Source: Nitratifractor salsuginis DSM 16511 (lineage in GTDB: Bacteria; Campylobacterota; Campylobacteria; Campylobacterales; Sulfurovaceae). From it: a stretch of 64,000 nt of DNA. This document shows, piece by piece, positions 6,780 through 15,325 of the stretch. The position numbers and the translations under genes are program-made. Where the stretch lies: assembly GCF_000186245.1 (NCBI RefSeq), contig NC_014935.1:806001-870000 (forward strand). Reading direction: 5' to 3'. Numbering within the stretch: position 1 is the first letter of the stretch; each line of letters opens with the position of its first letter. The notes beneath the pieces were generated by a model, which worked only from the letters and a program-made list of their open reading frames with translations, ran no database searches and was not told the DNA's origin.

Positions 6780-7730
6780 TTAGTGCCGGTGGAAAAGGCC
6801 CGGCCCGTCGACGATCCCCTCGACGCATCGGCTGTGAAGGGCGGGGGCGCCTTTGAGAAGCTCGGGGAGCTTGTCCCCTTTGCCCCGGAGGCTAATCGAG
6901 AGTTCGCTCAGCAGGCCGTTGCGGCAGTTCATCGCCAGTTTGGGGCCATTGCCGGGGCCGAAGCTCCTGGCGAAAAGTCGGCGCAGGGTGCTCAGCCGGA
7001 CCCGCTGCCCGATATTGGCCCGCAGATACTCCCCGACCATCGAGCGGTCGACCTGGGCGGTGAGGCTCAGGGCATCATTGAAATAGTTGACGGGATCTTT
7101 ACCGTAACAGCTGCCGTGCTTGACCCATTCGTGCCGGTCCAGGCCCGAGAGGGCTCCGGGGAAGTAACGCTCCATCAGCTGCCGAAGCCGGGGAGGATAG
7201 TCGATGGCGGACAGCGCCCTCCACTGATGCCGTTTGTCGAGCATTTTGAGGCGCTCGGGGACGGCGCAGTAGGCCCGGTTTCTGGGTTGGGGCCAGAGGC
7301 CGTGGAGGACCAGGTGATTGGCGGCACGATTATTGCGTGGCCGGCACTCTTTGCGGTTGGGGTGGGTTTCACAGAAGCTGTTGTGCCAGCTCATTACCAG
7401 GAGGGAATGAAGAGAGCTTTGGGTGTAGGCCTTCTCTGAAGAGCCGGTATGGATGCCAGGCTTTGCATCCCGGCTCAGGCATTTCTCGTCGACCCAGCGC
7501 TGAGTGGGGAAGGGTGCTTCGAGTTTGATGAGGTATTGGCCCTTGTGACGGCGAAGGACATTATAGCTTTTGCCCGGCTCCAGATTGAGGCTGCCGCGAT
7601 TGCGGTGATGGGCCAGATCGTTCCAGGCGGGGCAGGAGGCGGTGGAGTGGGCCTGATAGCGGGCTTCCAGGGAGCTGATACTTAGCAGGACCCCTGCCAG
7701 GATGAGGACGGTTCGGAATAGGTATCGCAT
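6780..7730 (-). CDS. Ribonuclease T2 family enzyme (RNase I-like), periplasmic
   Basis: Non-specific endoribonuclease giving 2',3'-cyclic phosphates. Both active-site segments are intact: CAS1 LHGLWPQ (residues ~142-148) and CAS2 HEWVKHGSC (~200-208), with the two catalytic histidines and the Glu/Lys. A signal peptide (VLILAGVLLSISSLEA) directs export. Residues ~30-90 form an extra N-terminal region with an SH3-like look (KSYNVLRRHKGQYLIKL), and cysteines suggest disulfides. Likely roles are scavenging RNA or degrading envelope-released RNA. The adjoining genes are also exported hydrolases. Confidence 0.87.
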   Translation of the reverse strand: MRYLFRTVLILAGVLLSISSLEARYQAHSTASCPAWNDLAHHRNRGSLNLEPGKSYNVLRRHKGQYLIKLEAPFPTQRWVDEKCLSRDAKPGIHTGSSEKAYTQSSLHSLLVMSWHNSFCETHPNRKECRPRNNRAANHLVLHGLWPQPRNRAYCAVPERLKMLDKRHQWRALSAIDYPPRLRQLMERYFPGALSGLDRHEWVKHGSCYGKDPVNYFNDALSLTAQVDRSMVGEYLRANIGQRVRLSTLRRLFARSFGPGNGPKLAMNCRNGLLSELSISLRGKGDKLPELLKGAPALHSRCVEGIVDGPGLFHRH

Positions 7731-8628: not shown

Positions 8629-11600
8629 TCAATGCGCTTTGAACGCCACAAAATCATCCAGGGGTTCTCCCTCTTTCCAATTGGATTTGAAGATCACTTT
8701 GGTCCCATCGGGGGAGGGGGTGGCGTGTGCGCTCCGATCGCTATAGCCGTATCCGGAATTGTGCTCCGCCATGAACCTGGCTTTGGCGAAGCGGTTGACG
8801 ATCCTGTTGTTGTGGATATCGACGCCATCGTCTCCGAGCATAATCGCGAAGATATCTCTATCGTTTAATTGCGAGGATTTGTAGGTGATATAGGCCCAGC
8901 CCGGGCGCTTGTAGTTTTGGCAGGAGACGTGCCCGCCGCCGTGGTTTAGAACGATCATCGTTCGCTCTTTTGTCTCCAGGTCGTATTGCCAGATCCCTTT
9001 TTGGCCGCTGTTTTGATACATACCGTCGGCACCGACCCCTTCGTTTTCAAACTGCACATAAAACTCTTTGTCCAGATCCTGGGAGACGCAGACATCGCCG
9101 TGATTGCCCTTGTATGCCAGAGTTTCAATAAAATTGAGGTTCATATCGTATTTGTCGATCTTTTTATACCAGTCGGTGCTGTGTGAACCGTCCTTGCCCT
9201 CTTTGAGCCCGGCGTAATGGTAAACGAGCACATAGCGCCCCAGCGGAGACACGGTCGCCCAGTTCAGGCGGTTTTCCACCCGATCCGATGTCATATGCAG
9301 CACTTTCGTTCCGTTTGTGCCGTCGAAATCTTTTATGACGCTGCTGTTGGTTTTGAAATTGTAGAGGATGAAGGTCGGGGTATCGTCCGCTCTACCCTGC
9401 ACGTGGGCCGTAAGCAGCATATAGGTATCGTTGTAATCCATATTGCCCTCGTACTCGCCGATCGTAATCCGGTCGTAAGTACCCGGTATCTCGTACAGAA
9501 GCGTCTCTTCCCCGCTGCGCAGATTCTCTTTGACGATGCCGTAGTGATGGGACGAGACCCAGCCTATGCCGTAGCGGAAGCGCCTGTTCAGACGGGACAA
9601 GCGCTTTTTGGAAGAGCTGTCAAAGGTATGGATCGGATCATAGGTACGGGCATCGACCAGCAGTTTGTCGGCTTGCAACAGCATCAAAGAGCTATCGGCG
9701 TTCCATACGGGATCTTTGGGGTAATGGTGAACGGGACTCACATCGTCATTCCCGGTGGCGTGGGTGACCTGGGTGATCGTCGTATCGAACGCTCCCCCTT
9801 CGTGGACGGAGTTTTTGTATCCGGGTCTTGCAATACTCTCATCCAACTCATATCCGGTATGCATCAGATCGCCGTCGACCAGGGTCGTATCTTTGGGGTA
9901 TTTTTTGACCTCTCCTTTTATGATATCCGAGAGTGCCGTATGCAGTGCTTTGTAGGAGGGGACCATATCTTTGAGGAAATACCACCAGAAAAATCCGCCG
10001 ACAAATCTTTCGTGTGTGATCGGGAGCATGTAGTATCGGGTTAAATATCCGGCTTTATCCCCTTGGGTGGCACCGACTTCGCCAAAACCGAGTTTGGCAT
10101 TCGGGAAGAGTGTTCCCAGATCATCAAACACTTGATTCCACTCCTCGATCGTCGGCTTGTGCCCGTCGCAATTTTCTTCATAATAACTTACGAAGAGATA
10201 ATCGATCCCCTCTCTTAGATATTGCGGCAGCATCTCCTGCGCCCACTCCCTCATCTTCTCCGACGGATCATCATAGCAGCCGTCATTTTCACTATAGTCG
10301 TTGTAGTAGAGGGTCAAAGCCGTTTTGTAGCCTCTGCTTTTTGCCTGGTTGTAGGCATAGATCGTCTTTTGTGCGACGTCGTCTCTCGTTTGGGTATCGT
10401 GATCGTATGTCCACCCCCCGTTGACTTCATTGCCGATCTCCCATATCGCTACCTGATCTCCGAAGGCGTCAAGGTATTCGTCGACCCTGCTTTTGTATTC
10501 GTCGACAGAGTAGTCTTTCAAGTACTCGGAGTCACACAGCTCACCCATAATGTCGGTATAGGGTGTCAGCCTCTGTATGGCTTCCTCATAATCCGAAGCG
10601 GGGACTTCATCGAAAACGACTCTGCTTACGACGCGTTTGGGGAGTGTCTCCAATGCCTCGATCGTTTTGTCCATTGTCTGGATACTATCGAGAGTCACGC
10701 CGTAGAATTTTTGGGAAAGATCGACGTCTGCATCGGCATACGCCCCAATGCGCTTGAAAGCATCCTCGACAGGCACCAGGAAGTTTGACGCATTGGGATC
10801 TTCACTTTCAAAGGTGACGTCACCGCCAATATTCCAGGAATTATGCTCATTGTCGGGGACTCCCCATTGACTTCGCATGGGGTTTCGGTTGGCGGCTGCG
10901 ATATTGTGATGGATCTTCGTACGTGCATCATAGCTGCCCACAAAACCGTCACGACCGTTATGGTAGGCGGTATTGTAGGCGAAGATCACATCGATACCGG
11001 AGTTGAAGTCAAAACCGTCCGCGCGGTTGCCGTAGGAAATATTGTTTTTGAAGGTCGCTTTTCGGCCGTTGCCCGCTTCGAAATTGGGGCCGGTGCAGTT
11101 GCCGTTGTCATCCCGTTTGCAGTTTCCTCCCCCTTTAAAGCCGTTGCCGTCTCCATCTGCCTTGCCGTTGTTGTATGAAAGATTATATGCTATGTAAGAA
11201 TAGTTCGAACGCCAGGCATCGATCCCGTCATCCGAACTGTCATAAACGCGGTTGTGCGTGATGATGTTGTATCTTCCCGAAGAGACGGAAATCCCGTCAG
11301 CGTTACCGCCGTTTGCCCGAGTCCCTTCGTCGGAATTTGCATAGATGTAATTGTCCCGGATGACATTGTATCCTCGCGGATAGGGGATGGTGTATCCGGG
11401 GTCATTTTCGTGCCACTTGCCGCCGTAGACGACGATACCGCTCAGGTGATTGTCGTGGACTCTGCACCCTTCGACGATGTTGTGGCTGCCGGAGACGACA
11501 ATGGCTTCATAGCCGGTATTGACCACATCGATCGATCGGAATCTTATATAGTCGCCTCGTATGTTTACGCCCCGATCCCGTTCATCGAGGTGCTCTCGAA

Positions 11601-12750
11601 AATAGTCGATGGATTCGAAGGGCCCTTTGAGTATGGCACGCTCGTTTGGATAGGATTCTACGATAACGGGGTGATCGAATGTTCCTTTTTTGCTAATACT
11701 TATCGCGTGGGGAATCGGGTAGATCCCTCCACGTAAAAAGAGCACGCCTCCCTCCGAGTTGAGCCGGGATAGCGCGGCGTGAAGGCTGCAGGGTGTTTGG
11801 AGGGTACACGCATCACCGCTGCCGTCCGGTGAAGCGATCAGTGTGGCCCGGGAGAGCGGGGTCGGGGCGATCGGTCGTGGACCTATGACGGTTTTTTTGA
11901 CTTCATTGGGCGCGAATTGTGCGGTCACATCCAGATCTGCCTGTACCTTGGTATCGACTCTCGGGTTTTGGGTAGAGCCGTCGCTCCATTTGAGAAAATG
12001 ATATCCGTTGTCCGGCAGGGCTGTCACTTCCGATCCGTCGGCATTTTGATCGACCGTTTGACGGGTTTCTCCCACGAGCGATCCGTTCGGGCCTGCCCTG
12101 TAGATTAGCGTATAGGTCAGCACTTTTTTATTGACCGTGATTAGGACCCCGTCGCTTGCACTCGCTCCGTCATCATCCGTCACGGTCAAGGTGACGGTGT
12201 GGGTGCCCACAGTAAAGTCGGATTTGGTGAAGCGGCTCTTTGTGCTCAAGGTGGTGTTGCCTTCCGTCCACCGGTAGCTTACAATGCGGCCGTCGCTGTC
12301 GGTACTCTTGGAGGCATCCAGTGTCACCGGTTCCCCTTCGGTGACCGTTTGATCCTCTCCGGCATCGGCCGTGGGTGCCCGGTTGGGGGGTACGGTTACA
12401 TTCACCGTTCTTCTTACGGTATCGGCGGCATTGCCTGCCGCATCACTTACATCATAGGTGACGGTATAGTTTCCCTCCGCTGCGGTGTTGACGGCTGAGG
12501 CATCGATACGGATCTTTGCCGTGATATTGCCGTCTCGGTCATCATAGGCTTCGGCACCGAGTTCCGTGTAGGTTCCGTCAAGAGGGATGATCTGGGGATT
12601 GGGGCCGTGGAGGGTTATGACCGGTTTGGTGGTATCGGGAGGATCGCCTGTTCCGGAACCGCCGCCACAGCCGGTCAGTAGAAGAAGGCTCAGGATCGAA
12701 AGGATGATAATCGGGAATCTTTTTATCACTGCAGGAATATGAAGATACAT
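8629..12750 (-). CDS. Giant lipoprotein: Ig/PKD + PL9-like beta-helix + GH-like barrel + beta-propeller
   Basis: About 1373 residues. The start is the ATG at 12748-12750, preceded on the minus strand by AAGGAGCGGCCCC. A lipoprotein signal has lipobox LLTGC (Cys28). Domains by eye: Ig-like (HYR/DUF5011 type) ~38-120; PKD ~122-205 (GEDQTVTEGEPVTLDAS); InlB-like repeat ~215-280 (YHFLKWSDGST); right-handed beta-helix ~300-640 resembling polysaccharide lyase family 9 (NIITHNRVYDSSDDGIDAW, DGNGFKGGG); a clan-A glycosidase-like domain ~680-935 with acid/base candidate WEIGNEVNGG (~773) and nucleophile candidate GFGEVG (~888); and a TolB/oligogalacturonate-lyase-like propeller ~1010-1373 (TPSPDGTKVIFKSNW). 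It probably binds or cleaves acidic polysaccharide at the cell surface; activity is inferred. Confidence 0.75.
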   Translation of the reverse strand: MYLHIPAVIKRFPIIILSILSLLLLTGCGGGSGTGDPPDTTKPVITLHGPNPQIIPLDGTYTELGAEAYDDRDGNITAKIRIDASAVNTAAEGNYTVTYDVSDAAGNAADTVRRTVNVTVPPNRAPTADAGEDQTVTEGEPVTLDASKSTDSDGRIVSYRWTEGNTTLSTKSRFTKSDFTVGTHTVTLTVTDDDGASASDGVLITVNKKVLTYTLIYRAGPNGSLVGETRQTVDQNADGSEVTALPDNGYHFLKWSDGSTQNPRVDTKVQADLDVTAQFAPNEVKKTVIGPRPIAPTPLSRATLIASPDGSGDACTLQTPCSLHAALSRLNSEGGVLFLRGGIYPIPHAISISKKGTFDHPVIVESYPNERAILKGPFESIDYFREHLDERDRGVNIRGDYIRFRSIDVVNTGYEAIVVSGSHNIVEGCRVHDNHLSGIVVYGGKWHENDPGYTIPYPRGYNVIRDNYIYANSDEGTRANGGNADGISVSSGRYNIITHNRVYDSSDDGIDAWRSNYSYIAYNLSYNNGKADGDGNGFKGGGNCKRDDNGNCTGPNFEAGNGRKATFKNNISYGNRADGFDFNSGIDVIFAYNTAYHNGRDGFVGSYDARTKIHHNIAAANRNPMRSQWGVPDNEHNSWNIGGDVTFESEDPNASNFLVPVEDAFKRIGAYADADVDLSQKFYGVTLDSIQTMDKTIEALETLPKRVVSRVVFDEVPASDYEEAIQRLTPYTDIMGELCDSEYLKDYSVDEYKSRVDEYLDAFGDQVAIWEIGNEVNGGWTYDHDTQTRDDVAQKTIYAYNQAKSRGYKTALTLYYNDYSENDGCYDDPSEKMREWAQEMLPQYLREGIDYLFVSYYEENCDGHKPTIEEWNQVFDDLGTLFPNAKLGFGEVGATQGDKAGYLTRYYMLPITHERFVGGFFWWYFLKDMVPSYKALHTALSDIIKGEVKKYPKDTTLVDGDLMHTGYELDESIARPGYKNSVHEGGAFDTTITQVTHATGNDDVSPVHHYPKDPVWNADSSLMLLQADKLLVDARTYDPIHTFDSSSKKRLSRLNRRFRYGIGWVSSHHYGIVKENLRSGEETLLYEIPGTYDRITIGEYEGNMDYNDTYMLLTAHVQGRADDTPTFILYNFKTNSSVIKDFDGTNGTKVLHMTSDRVENRLNWATVSPLGRYVLVYHYAGLKEGKDGSHSTDWYKKIDKYDMNLNFIETLAYKGNHGDVCVSQDLDKEFYVQFENEGVGADGMYQNSGQKGIWQYDLETKERTMIVLNHGGGHVSCQNYKRPGWAYITYKSSQLNDRDIFAIMLGDDGVDIHNNRIVNRFAKARFMAEHNSGYGYSDRSAHATPSPDGTKVIFKSNWKEGEPLDDFVAFKAH

Positions 12751-12763
12751 GGGGCCGCTCCTT
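12163..12763 (-). repeat. 601-nt near-identical block shared with 14725-15325
   Basis: This block covers the ribosome site, signal peptide, first Ig-like module and PKD module of the giant lipoprotein. It aligns colinearly, without length change, to 14725-15325 in the next gene, with only scattered substitutions visible (for example around 12385-12400 and 12545-12590). Homology stops abruptly at CGCTCCGT on one side and GCTCCTT upstream of the start on the other. Confidence 0.85.
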
Positions 12764-12969: not shown

Positions 12970-15312
12970 TCAATTAATGTAAGGCACAAGTGGATCACTT
13001 CCGTTCAAGAATTCATCCAAATCATAGTATCCATCACCATCATAATCTGTTTTATTGTTATCATCATATTGAGCAACGGATAAATTGCCAAACTTCATAT
13101 ATTCCCATACATCAGCCATACCGTCACCATCTGAATCTGCATATAATGTACCGGGAGACATGGCAGGAAAACTTACATTACCATTTTCCCAATCCTCTTC
13201 ATTTACCGCATGATCAAATCCTGTACTATCTTTAACATTATTGATCATTCTCAAATCAACATCATCAATATTGCTTACAAATTCACCTTTCTCATTCAAT
13301 CGTGCATTGCATCCTACATCGGCAAGAACAACATTATAAGTATCTTGAATATTCAAAATTTTAACTGGGAACATCGCTTGTTTTAATGCATCAAATCGCT
13401 TATACCTATCACTTAAATTTACCAATTTTGAATTTTCATCCTCTGTTCTTTCTAAATAGAATGCATAAGGATTTGAAGGCGGATTATAGTGGGGGATCAT
13501 AATATTCCCAGACATATATATTGAACCATCGCTTACATTGGTACAACTCTTCTTCCATGGTTCATGCCAGACTCTTTGATATGTGATATCATCTGTTGTC
13601 ATAGGACCGGCTTTGTAGTAATTGTTAATGAAGTCAACTACTACATCTCTTGTTGTAGAGCCTGCTCTATTCCCCCAATTGTAAATTACATTATTAATCA
13701 CTTTAACCCCATTGGTACTTACGCGTGGATTTCGGTGATCTGAACCCGTAAAGAGATTTCTGTGTATTGAAATATTTTTAACCCATTTCCCTGTATAGGA
13801 GCAAGTCGTAGCACTTCCTCCTTGAATATTCATACCGGTTGAATGCCCCTCTTCAGATTCTCCAAACAGGCTGTTTTGCACTGAAAAATTATACATGGCA
13901 TCACTCTCTCGTGCTTGACTGCTCAATGAAATGGTAAGCAAGTTGTCCCGTGTCCACTGAGATGAAACATGATCGATTATTACATTGTGTCCTTCTCTAA
14001 AATAAATATTAAGTGGGCGAGTTCGAAGTTTATCGTTTGGATTTCCTTTGTATGAAAGAGACCATCCTTGTCTAAATTTTAAATATCGTATGACAACATC
14101 ATGTAATCCATCGGCACTGTTTGGCACATAGATTAAACCTTGTATGCCTTTAGGATTACCGGGCTTCATACGTAGGCAAATGCCATCACCGGGTGCAGTT
14201 TGTCCTGCTATGGTTATATTGGAGTTAGTTAACCTGATGGGCTTTTTCAGATCGATATACCCACTGACACGAAAGATAACTATTCTGCTGCCATTGGCTT
14301 CTATAGCTGCTCGTAAACTTCCTTTGCCACTGTCATTCGTATTGGTGACTTCTATGATTCTTCCGCCTCTGCCTCCTTTGGAAATCGCTCCAAACCCTTC
14401 TGCTTCGGGGAATGCCGGTAGCACCGTGATGGCTTTTTGGACAACATTCACCGTTCGTATCACTTCATCAGCAGCATTGCCTGCCGCATCACTTACATCA
14501 TAGGTGACGGTATAGTTTCCCTCTGCCGACGTGTTGACGGCTGAGGCATCGATACGGATCTTTGCCGTGATATTGCCGTCTCGGTTATCATAGGCTTCCG
14601 CTCCGAGTTCCGTGTAGGTTCCGCCAAGGGGGATGATCTGGGGATTGGGACCGTGGAGGGTTATGACCGGTTTGGTGGTATCGGGTGCAGTTGTTACTTT
14701 CACAACGACTGTGTCACTATCCATCGCTCCGTCATCATCCGTCACGGTCAAGGTGACGGTGTGGGTGCCCACAGTAAAGTCGGATTTGGTGAAGCGGCTC
14801 TTTGTGCTCAAGGTGGTGTTGCCTTCCGTCCACCGGTAGCTTACAATGCGGCCGTCGCTGTCGGTACTCTTGGAGGCATCCAGTGTCACCGGTTCCCCTT
14901 CGGTGACCGTTTGATCCTCTCCGGCATCGGCTGTGGGTGCCCGGTTGGGTGGTGCGATTACGCTTACCGTTCTTCTTACGGTATCGGCAGCATTGCCTGC
15001 CGCATCACTTACATCATAGGTGACGGTATAGTTTCCCTCCGCTGCGGTGTTGACGGCTGAGGCATCGATACGGATCTTTGCCGTGATATTGCCGTCTCGG
15101 TCATCATAGGCTTCCGCTCCGAGTTCCGTGTAGGTTCCGCCAAGCGGGATGATCTGGGGATTGGGACCGTGGAGGGTTATGACCGGTTTGGTGGTATCGG
15201 GAGGATCGCCTGTTCCGGAACCGCCGCCACAGCCAGTCAGCAGAAGAAGGCTCAGGATCGATAGGATGATAATCGGGAATCTTTTTATCACTGCAGGAAT
15301 ATGAAGATACAT
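12970..15312 (-). CDS. Lipoprotein with Ig/PKD modules and PL1-like pectate-lyase domain
   Basis: 780 residues. The lipobox LLTGC (Cys28) and the first two modules (Ig-like ~38-120, PKD ~122-205) match the giant lipoprotein almost exactly. A second Ig-like copy (~213-295) is itself a DNA-level duplicate of the first. Then comes a PL1-type pectate-lyase beta-helix (~300-690): EAEGFGAISKGGRGG, ITIAGQTAPGDG, IDHVSSQWTRDN, HRNPRVSTNG. The C-terminus has two calcium-loop-like segments, DSDGDGMADVWE and DYDGDGYYDLDEF. The lyase half (12970-14400) is strikingly AT-rich against its neighbours, pointing to horizontal acquisition of the catalytic part. The 219-nt gap to the giant lipoprotein gene has no other gene. 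Confidence 0.8.
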   Translation of the reverse strand: MYLHIPAVIKRFPIIILSILSLLLLTGCGGGSGTGDPPDTTKPVITLHGPNPQIIPLGGTYTELGAEAYDDRDGNITAKIRIDASAVNTAAEGNYTVTYDVSDAAGNAADTVRRTVSVIAPPNRAPTADAGEDQTVTEGEPVTLDASKSTDSDGRIVSYRWTEGNTTLSTKSRFTKSDFTVGTHTVTLTVTDDDGAMDSDTVVVKVTTAPDTTKPVITLHGPNPQIIPLGGTYTELGAEAYDNRDGNITAKIRIDASAVNTSAEGNYTVTYDVSDAAGNAADEVIRTVNVVQKAITVLPAFPEAEGFGAISKGGRGGRIIEVTNTNDSGKGSLRAAIEANGSRIVIFRVSGYIDLKKPIRLTNSNITIAGQTAPGDGICLRMKPGNPKGIQGLIYVPNSADGLHDVVIRYLKFRQGWSLSYKGNPNDKLRTRPLNIYFREGHNVIIDHVSSQWTRDNLLTISLSSQARESDAMYNFSVQNSLFGESEEGHSTGMNIQGGSATTCSYTGKWVKNISIHRNLFTGSDHRNPRVSTNGVKVINNVIYNWGNRAGSTTRDVVVDFINNYYKAGPMTTDDITYQRVWHEPWKKSCTNVSDGSIYMSGNIMIPHYNPPSNPYAFYLERTEDENSKLVNLSDRYKRFDALKQAMFPVKILNIQDTYNVVLADVGCNARLNEKGEFVSNIDDVDLRMINNVKDSTGFDHAVNEEDWENGNVSFPAMSPGTLYADSDGDGMADVWEYMKFGNLSVAQYDDNNKTDYDGDGYYDLDEFLNGSDPLVPYIN
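14471..14685 (-). repeat. 215-nt Ig-module duplicate (second copy at 14987-15201)
   Basis: Reads GCAGCATTGCCTGCC... to ...GTGGTATCGGG and recurs at 14987-15201 with an offset of exactly 516 nt. A third copy lies in the neighbouring gene (inside 12430-12640). Only a few substitutions are visible, such as the region around 14521-14530. Confidence 0.85.
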
Positions 15313-15325
15313 GGGGCCGCTCCTT
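14725..15325 (-). repeat. 601-nt near-identical block shared with 12163-12763
   Basis: Second copy of the block containing ribosome site, signal peptide, Ig-like and PKD modules. The two copies have the same orientation, 2562 nt apart. Confidence 0.85.

Follow-up and report, generated by a model that had tools for sequence, protein, structure and literature searches.

We analysed a 64,000-nucleotide stretch of Nitratifractor salsuginis DSM 16511 DNA (the window; positions 806,001 to 870,000 of contig NC_014935.1, from a closed genome of 2,101,285 bp), which carries on its minus strand, at 8629-12750, a gene for a predicted lipoprotein of 1373 amino acids. The gene is a single uninterrupted open reading frame that starts with an ATG at 12750, with AAGGAG just upstream, and stops at 8629; a TTG version of the frame gives 1420 amino acids, and the signal peptide and lipobox come with the ATG start. 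From N- to C-terminus the protein consists of the lipobox, an Ig-like domain, a PKD domain, an InlB-type repeat, a beta-helix, a TIM barrel and a beta-propeller (Table 1). A preliminary description, made from the sequence, had proposed a 1373-residue lipoprotein with Ig, PKD and InlB-like parts, and the intact reading frame, the LLTG-C28 lipobox and the Pfam matches bear this out. Residues 650-1373 have no Pfam or NCBIfam match, and a scan of genome contigs with the whole protein returned 0 relatives; an alignment of the barrel, used as the query, did find relatives. No RNA family or tRNA was found in the window, and a promoter and terminator scan around this gene and its neighbour gave no clear excess over shuffled sequence.

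The order of the three C-terminal modules, which the same description had called unusual, is indeed rare. The fusion was sought in overlapping sets of genomes, 399 from the order, 13 from the genus and 397 from the phylum Campylobacterota, and all three modules occurred together in the N. salsuginis genome and in no other. One metagenome-assembled genome (MAG; locus L020, the same as L053) encodes an Ig-barrel-propeller protein of 71% identity, whose barrel is sister to the window barrel with a support of 0.995; no NfrB (see below) was seen in this MAG, but it is only 65% complete. Among the 80 barrel loci described below, a PL9-like module was found in none and a propeller only in this MAG. 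Other combinations were a PL9-like module with an SGNH esterase and an alpha/beta hydrolase, an alpha/beta hydrolase with a propeller, and single propellers and single barrels. Since each of the three modules also occurs on its own as a conserved family, the architecture is not a product of chance.

The beta-helix resembles the lyases of family PL9. It matched Pel9A (1ru4) by phmmer at E=1.5e-12, and a profile of seven sequences matched 1ru4 at E=8e-44 and the PL9 rhamnogalacturonan lyase 5olq at E=3e-23. The calcium ligands of Pel9A are Asp209, Asp233 and Asp237 and its base is Lys273 (PMC10992409); D485, D507, D511 and K539 of the window protein align with these residues in that order, D508 aligns with the neighbouring Asp234, and the calcium-ligand and lysine positions do not vary among the seven aligned PL9-like sequences. 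The only Pfam match of the helix region was Beta_helix (PF13229; residues 394-537, E=4.4e-10). The Pel9A-like model of Pfam, PF22842, does not match the window protein and does match two relatives (L028 and L034), and we therefore call the module PL9-like and do not file it as a PL9 member. Judged by its residue content it is very probably an active calcium-dependent lyase, and the PL9-like helix of the preliminary description is thus upheld by homology, with all catalytic residues kept. Several PL9-like relatives lie in exopolysaccharide clusters, among genes for Wzz-like proteins, glycosyltransferases and acyltransferases. Proteins with a YED(A/G)E motif in the region of their N-terminal domain recur beside PL9-like genes and, together with DUF2334, also beside a barrel gene; where tested, they matched a D-glucuronyl C5-epimerase beta-sandwich model.

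For the barrel, an AlphaFold model built from three sequences only has eight beta/alpha units at moderate confidence (predicted local distance difference test score, pLDDT, 64; predicted template-modelling score 0.70). Its Foldseek matches were TIM barrels, led by GH10 (E=8e-4) and with entries of GH1, GH5, GH17, GH26 and GH79 (heparanase) among them. A scan of 84,980 species genomes gave 321 stretches matching the barrel, of which 80 loci were kept for the locus analyses; the conservation alignment holds 81 sequences. Carriers include Campylobacterota, Burkholderiales, Ignavibacteria, Bdellovibrionota, Myxococcota, Acidobacteria and a Parachlamydiaceae MAG, among others, and many of the family's proteins are exported and some 280-310 amino acids long. 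N774-E775 and E891 are invariant (81/81), as are R710, D740, W770, W922 and W923; the conserved signature of the family comprises R710, D714, E737, D740, Y857, W922 and W923. In the predicted topology E775, preceded by Asn, ends strand beta-4 and E891 ends beta-7, so the clan-A-like barrel with two candidate glutamates that had been proposed is supported in both position and conservation. No member has a Pfam or NCBIfam name. Weak GH53 matches were found in 10 of 66 members (best 8.3e-5; 1r8l at E=0.1) and the window domain has none, and assignment to GH53 was rejected. By predicted fold and conservation, then, the barrel is a clan GH-A-type family that is uncatalogued in Pfam and NCBIfam.

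The family also has some unusual members. At L109 (5986-6825, with the upstream part of the same frame) the barrel follows a region that by eye appears PgaB-hydrolase-like, in a protein of 703 amino acids. Two genomes from a different family of the order, each closed or nearly so, carry short, divergent single-domain barrels (L048, 6259-7008, and L049, 6992-7714) of 35-39% identity that keep both glutamates, and no obvious Nfr or polysaccharide genes lie nearby.

The propeller model, built from eight sequences, is all-beta and propeller-like (pLDDT 73); like that of the barrel, its fold is assigned with moderate confidence. Its best three Foldseek matches in the PDB were PL22 oligogalacturonate lyases, including 3pe7 and 3c5m (E=4e-12 to 2e-10; for 3pe7 E=4.2e-12, template-modelling scores 0.58/0.62), and the next match outside PL22 was at 3e-9. 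The PL22 model PF14583 had no match in the window protein, elsewhere in its genome or in six genomes carrying the barrel, and hhalign to PL22-like relatives (E=0.0055) covered only the N-terminal part, the first blades; membership of PL22 by sequence was therefore rejected. E. coli YidR, tried as a bridge to PL22, yielded nothing, and a plasmid search with the propeller gave no match. We take His242 of 3pe7 to be the base and His287, Gln350, His353 and His355 to be the metal site. H1217, H1274 and H1342 fall in the blades of His242, His287 and His355 by reading order and partly by MAFFT, a register that hhalign does not confirm; H1217, in an HGD motif, is kept in 8/8 sequences of the propeller alignment and H1274 in 7/8, and H1342 also counts among the conserved histidines of the module. 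A PL22-like fold is thus supported by the model, while a PL22-type active site is only suggestive, and of the lyase-type propeller described earlier it is the fold that stands. Single-propeller relatives lie among glycosyltransferases, and several propeller genes are in exopolysaccharide clusters.

The neighbourhoods of the barrel family point to a particular kind of polymer. In 2021 NGR, the glycan that phage N4 uses as its receptor on E. coli, was traced to an exopolysaccharide synthase of the NfrB type (PMC8669469, PMC8669472). Within flanks of at most 6 kb at the 80 loci we found NfrB-type genes at 15 loci, NfrA-type at 15, DUF2334 at 18, WecB at 11 and YbcH/DUF4434 at 3, and Pfam confirmed NfrA_C, MshEN, DUF2334 (a predicted deacetylase), DUF4434 and Epimerase_2 at example loci; the same Nfr-type queries gave 0 matches in 335 kb of control loci. 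Eight of the loci come from Ralstonia or close kin and the rest span several lineages (a Campylobacteraceae MAG, Hyalangium, Rokubacterium, Bdellovibrio, a Parachlamydiaceae MAG, Collimonas and an Oligoflexia MAG). At the level of genomes, a match to E. coli NfrB (E<=1e-20) was present in 34 of 45 with the family against 1 of 34 controls (p=1.2e-11), the controls being Campylobacterota without the family and Acidobacteriota of untested family status, not matched for phylum; within Campylobacterota the counts were 4/7 and 1/20 (p=0.009, few genomes). In the literature on the NfrB system we found no paper naming a polymer-cutting enzyme. A barrel family that has two invariant catalytic glutamates, and whose carriers, among those tested, possess NfrB in three cases out of four, is a direct candidate for this cutter and is plausibly the cognate hydrolase of NfrB-type polymers, which makes the structure and turnover of such a polymer open to test. 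The possibility that the barrel is E. coli YbcH was rejected: hhalign gave no profile match, and the homologue of YbcH is encoded on its own, close to the barrel gene.

In Ignavibacteria genomes (four, with two instances in three of them) the NfrB-type glycosyltransferase is split over two adjacent genes. One encodes the first half of the glycosyltransferase domain, and in the product of the next the second half (QRSRW) is preceded by a hydrophilic segment that may be a coiled coil; in L152 and L153 the split genes are followed by one for a WecB-type epimerase.

On balance we favour a reading of the window protein as a lipoprotein anchored at the cell surface, where its several modules, carried on a single chain, would process bacterial exopolysaccharide. 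The analysis establishes the architecture, the PL9 catalytic residues, the two invariant glutamates of the barrel, the statistical association of the barrel family with NfrB and the placement of PL9-like and propeller relatives in exopolysaccharide clusters; we infer the substrate, the activity and the location on the outer face. The cell's own uronic-acid-containing matrix is the most likely target, with the matrix of neighbours second. The host has a polysaccharide cluster encoding a TviB-type UDP-GlcNAc 6-dehydrogenase (an enzyme of uronic-acid precursors), Wzc-like and Wzx-like proteins and export proteins. N. salsuginis is described as a non-motile strict chemolithoautotroph that can draw neither energy nor carbon from any organic compound (PMC3156401); polysaccharide as food is at odds with this physiology, and we therefore think of matrix processing and not of nutrition. 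Where the preliminary description had suggested a biofilm or host-derived polysaccharide, the genomic context of relatives argues for the biofilm, and no support was found for a host-derived substrate.

In the mechanism we propose, the PL9-like module would cleave a uronic-acid chain by calcium-assisted beta-elimination, with K539 as the base, and the barrel would hydrolyse a second linkage by a retaining mechanism in which E775 is the acid/base and E891 the nucleophile. The propeller may act on, or bind, short uronic-acid fragments in the manner of PL22, and the Ig, PKD and InlB-type domains would serve as spacers, keeping the catalytic head at a distance from the outer membrane. The barrel may have been recruited from an Nfr-type pathway, where it is plausibly a cognate polymer hydrolase with a role like that of AlgL, PelA, PslG or the hydrolase domain of PgaB. 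Somewhat more tentatively, it could represent a new clan GH-A family acting as the unrecognised cognate hydrolase of NfrB-type (NGR) exopolysaccharides across many phyla, with the window protein a derivative that moved out of the Nfr operon and, once joined to a lyase-type module on either side, became a multi-cutter of uronic-acid matrix.

Several points weigh against this interpretation. The gene lies at 0.81 Mb, outside the exopolysaccharide cluster at about 1.73 Mb, and neither NfrB nor DUF2334 was found in the N. salsuginis genome, so that the barrel serves no Nfr operon there and the target of the protein is a guess. The barrel model is weak (pLDDT 64) and a manganese site in the propeller is not demonstrated. 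The Nfr comparison lacked phylum-matched controls, and the within-phylum p value rests on few genomes. We know of no activity for any close relative.

The gene next to it encodes a second lipoprotein, P0002, of 780 amino acids. The two genes share a 602-bp cassette, 97.3% identical by blastn, that runs from the ribosome-binding site through the PKD domain. The PL1-like domain of P0002 matched 9buj ('Pectate lyase') at E=2e-27 and, distantly, the Vi-polymer lyase VexL (6fi2) at E=6e-9; its match to NF041900 PelZ (E=1e-33) is below the model's cut-off. This lyase payload (12970-14442) has a G+C content of 38.6% against 54.8% for the window, which suggests recent acquisition. The same secretion and anchor cassette thus precedes two unlike payloads, one or both of foreign composition; the window protein illustrates how, in an autotroph, an enzyme such as the barrel and lyases can come to share a single anchor by means of a duplicated secretion cassette. 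Neither this shared cassette nor the link of the barrel to the Nfr system features in the preliminary description. Elsewhere in the window, the gene at 6780-7730 codes for a member of the ribonuclease T2 family (PF00445, E=9e-16) that appears to have a signal peptide, here in a Campylobacterota genome.

Table 1. Features of the lipoprotein gene, its neighbour and related loci. Positions are those of the window unless preceded by a locus number (L).
Feature	Position	Strand	Basis or content
Signal peptide and lipobox (LLTG-C28)	12667..12750	minus	sequence
Ig-like domain, residues 45-118	12397..12618	minus	Pfam PF16403, E=7.6e-20
PKD domain (PKD_4), residues 123-200	12151..12384	minus	Pfam PF18911, E=1.9e-17
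InlB-type B repeat (Flg_new_2), residues 213-282	11905..12114	minus	Pfam PF18998, E=3.7e-8
PL9-like right-handed beta-helix, residues 308-642	10825..11829	minus	phmmer and profile against 1ru4, 5olq
Predicted clan GH-A-type (beta/alpha)8 barrel, residues 683-950	9901..10704	minus	AlphaFold topology, 81-sequence conservation
Predicted PL22-like beta-propeller, residues 980-1373	8632..9813	minus	AlphaFold, Foldseek, alignment of relatives
Adjacent 780-aa lipoprotein (P0002)	12970..15312	minus	cassette, extra Ig, PL1-like pectate-lyase domain (residues ~300-700)
Cassette copy 1 (ribosome-binding site, signal, Ig, PKD)	12162..12763	minus	blastn
Cassette copy 2 (neighbour gene)	14724..15325	minus	blastn
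YED(A/G)E-type proteins	L024:14623-16350, L029:5860-7506, L033:7759-9405, L059:3438-5879
Split NfrB-type gene pairs	L152:2103-4966, L153:1855-4738, L154:2149-4398		Ignavibacteria

The strongest competitor, unlikely in our view but deserving of weight, is that the protein attacks the matrix of other microbes, in competition or in the dispersal of mixed biofilms, and not the organism's own polymer. It would explain a surface lipoprotein with long spacers, encoded outside the host's polysaccharide cluster in a genome lacking a cognate Nfr synthase and next to a second, distantly VexL-like lyase; against it, the host has a uronic-acid-type polysaccharide pathway of its own, and the relatives of the PL9-like module and the propeller lie in biosynthesis clusters. 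Polymer maturation is less probable still: here the helix would be a C5-epimerase or similar tailoring domain and the barrel a transglycosylase, so that the polymer is modified and not cut. Relatives do fuse the PL9-like helix to an SGNH esterase and adjoin D-glucuronyl C5-epimerase beta-sandwich domains, and the helix has weak profile matches to mannuronan epimerases, but these reach only 3e-5 against 8e-44 for the lyases, and the full PL9 calcium site and lysine base are present. The many adhesive domains and the undemonstrated active site of the propeller would suit a non-catalytic, polysaccharide-binding adhesin with retained enzyme folds, which we regard as very improbable because the catalytic residues of two modules are all kept, the glutamates in 81/81 sequences. 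A nutritional degrader of pectin or algal polysaccharide, the least credible reading, would account for PL9-like, PL22-like and neighbouring PL1-like modules that together resemble a pectin-degrading set, and it is contradicted by the strict chemolithoautotrophy of N. salsuginis without use of organic compounds (PMC3156401) and by a genome with no PF14583 oligogalacturonate lyase.

Processing of bacterial exopolysaccharide by an anchored chain of several modules, the reading we favour, can be set beside known systems at two levels. At the level of the modules, the window helix shares with the PL9 lyases (Pel9A 1RU4, BT 5OLQ) a right-handed beta-helix with the calcium ligands and lysine base in register, and differs in missing PF22842 and in sitting within a three-module lipoprotein. 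The nearest of clan GH-A to the barrel is GH53 endo-beta-1,4-galactanase, with a (beta/alpha)8 fold, GNE at beta-4 and GE at beta-7, whereas the barrel family has its own conserved signature and no Pfam or NCBIfam model. The PL22 enzymes 3PE7 and 3C5M are the best structural matches of the propeller and, by reading order, have histidines in similar blade positions, and the propeller family lacks PF14583 and has motifs of its own (EGN, HGD and GW). At the level of systems, barrel genes lie beside NfrB, NfrA, WecB and DUF4434 genes or in the same genomes, whereas no barrel-type gene is present in the nfrBA-ybcH region of E. coli K-12 and YbcH is unrelated by hhalign. Exopolysaccharide operons with cognate cutters are known for PelA, PslG, AlgL and PgaB (PMC9075953, PMC5933820), in which the cutter is likewise encoded with the polymer synthase, sometimes beside a deacetylase; the window protein belongs to another family, joins three modules in one lipoprotein and is encoded away from the polymer cluster.

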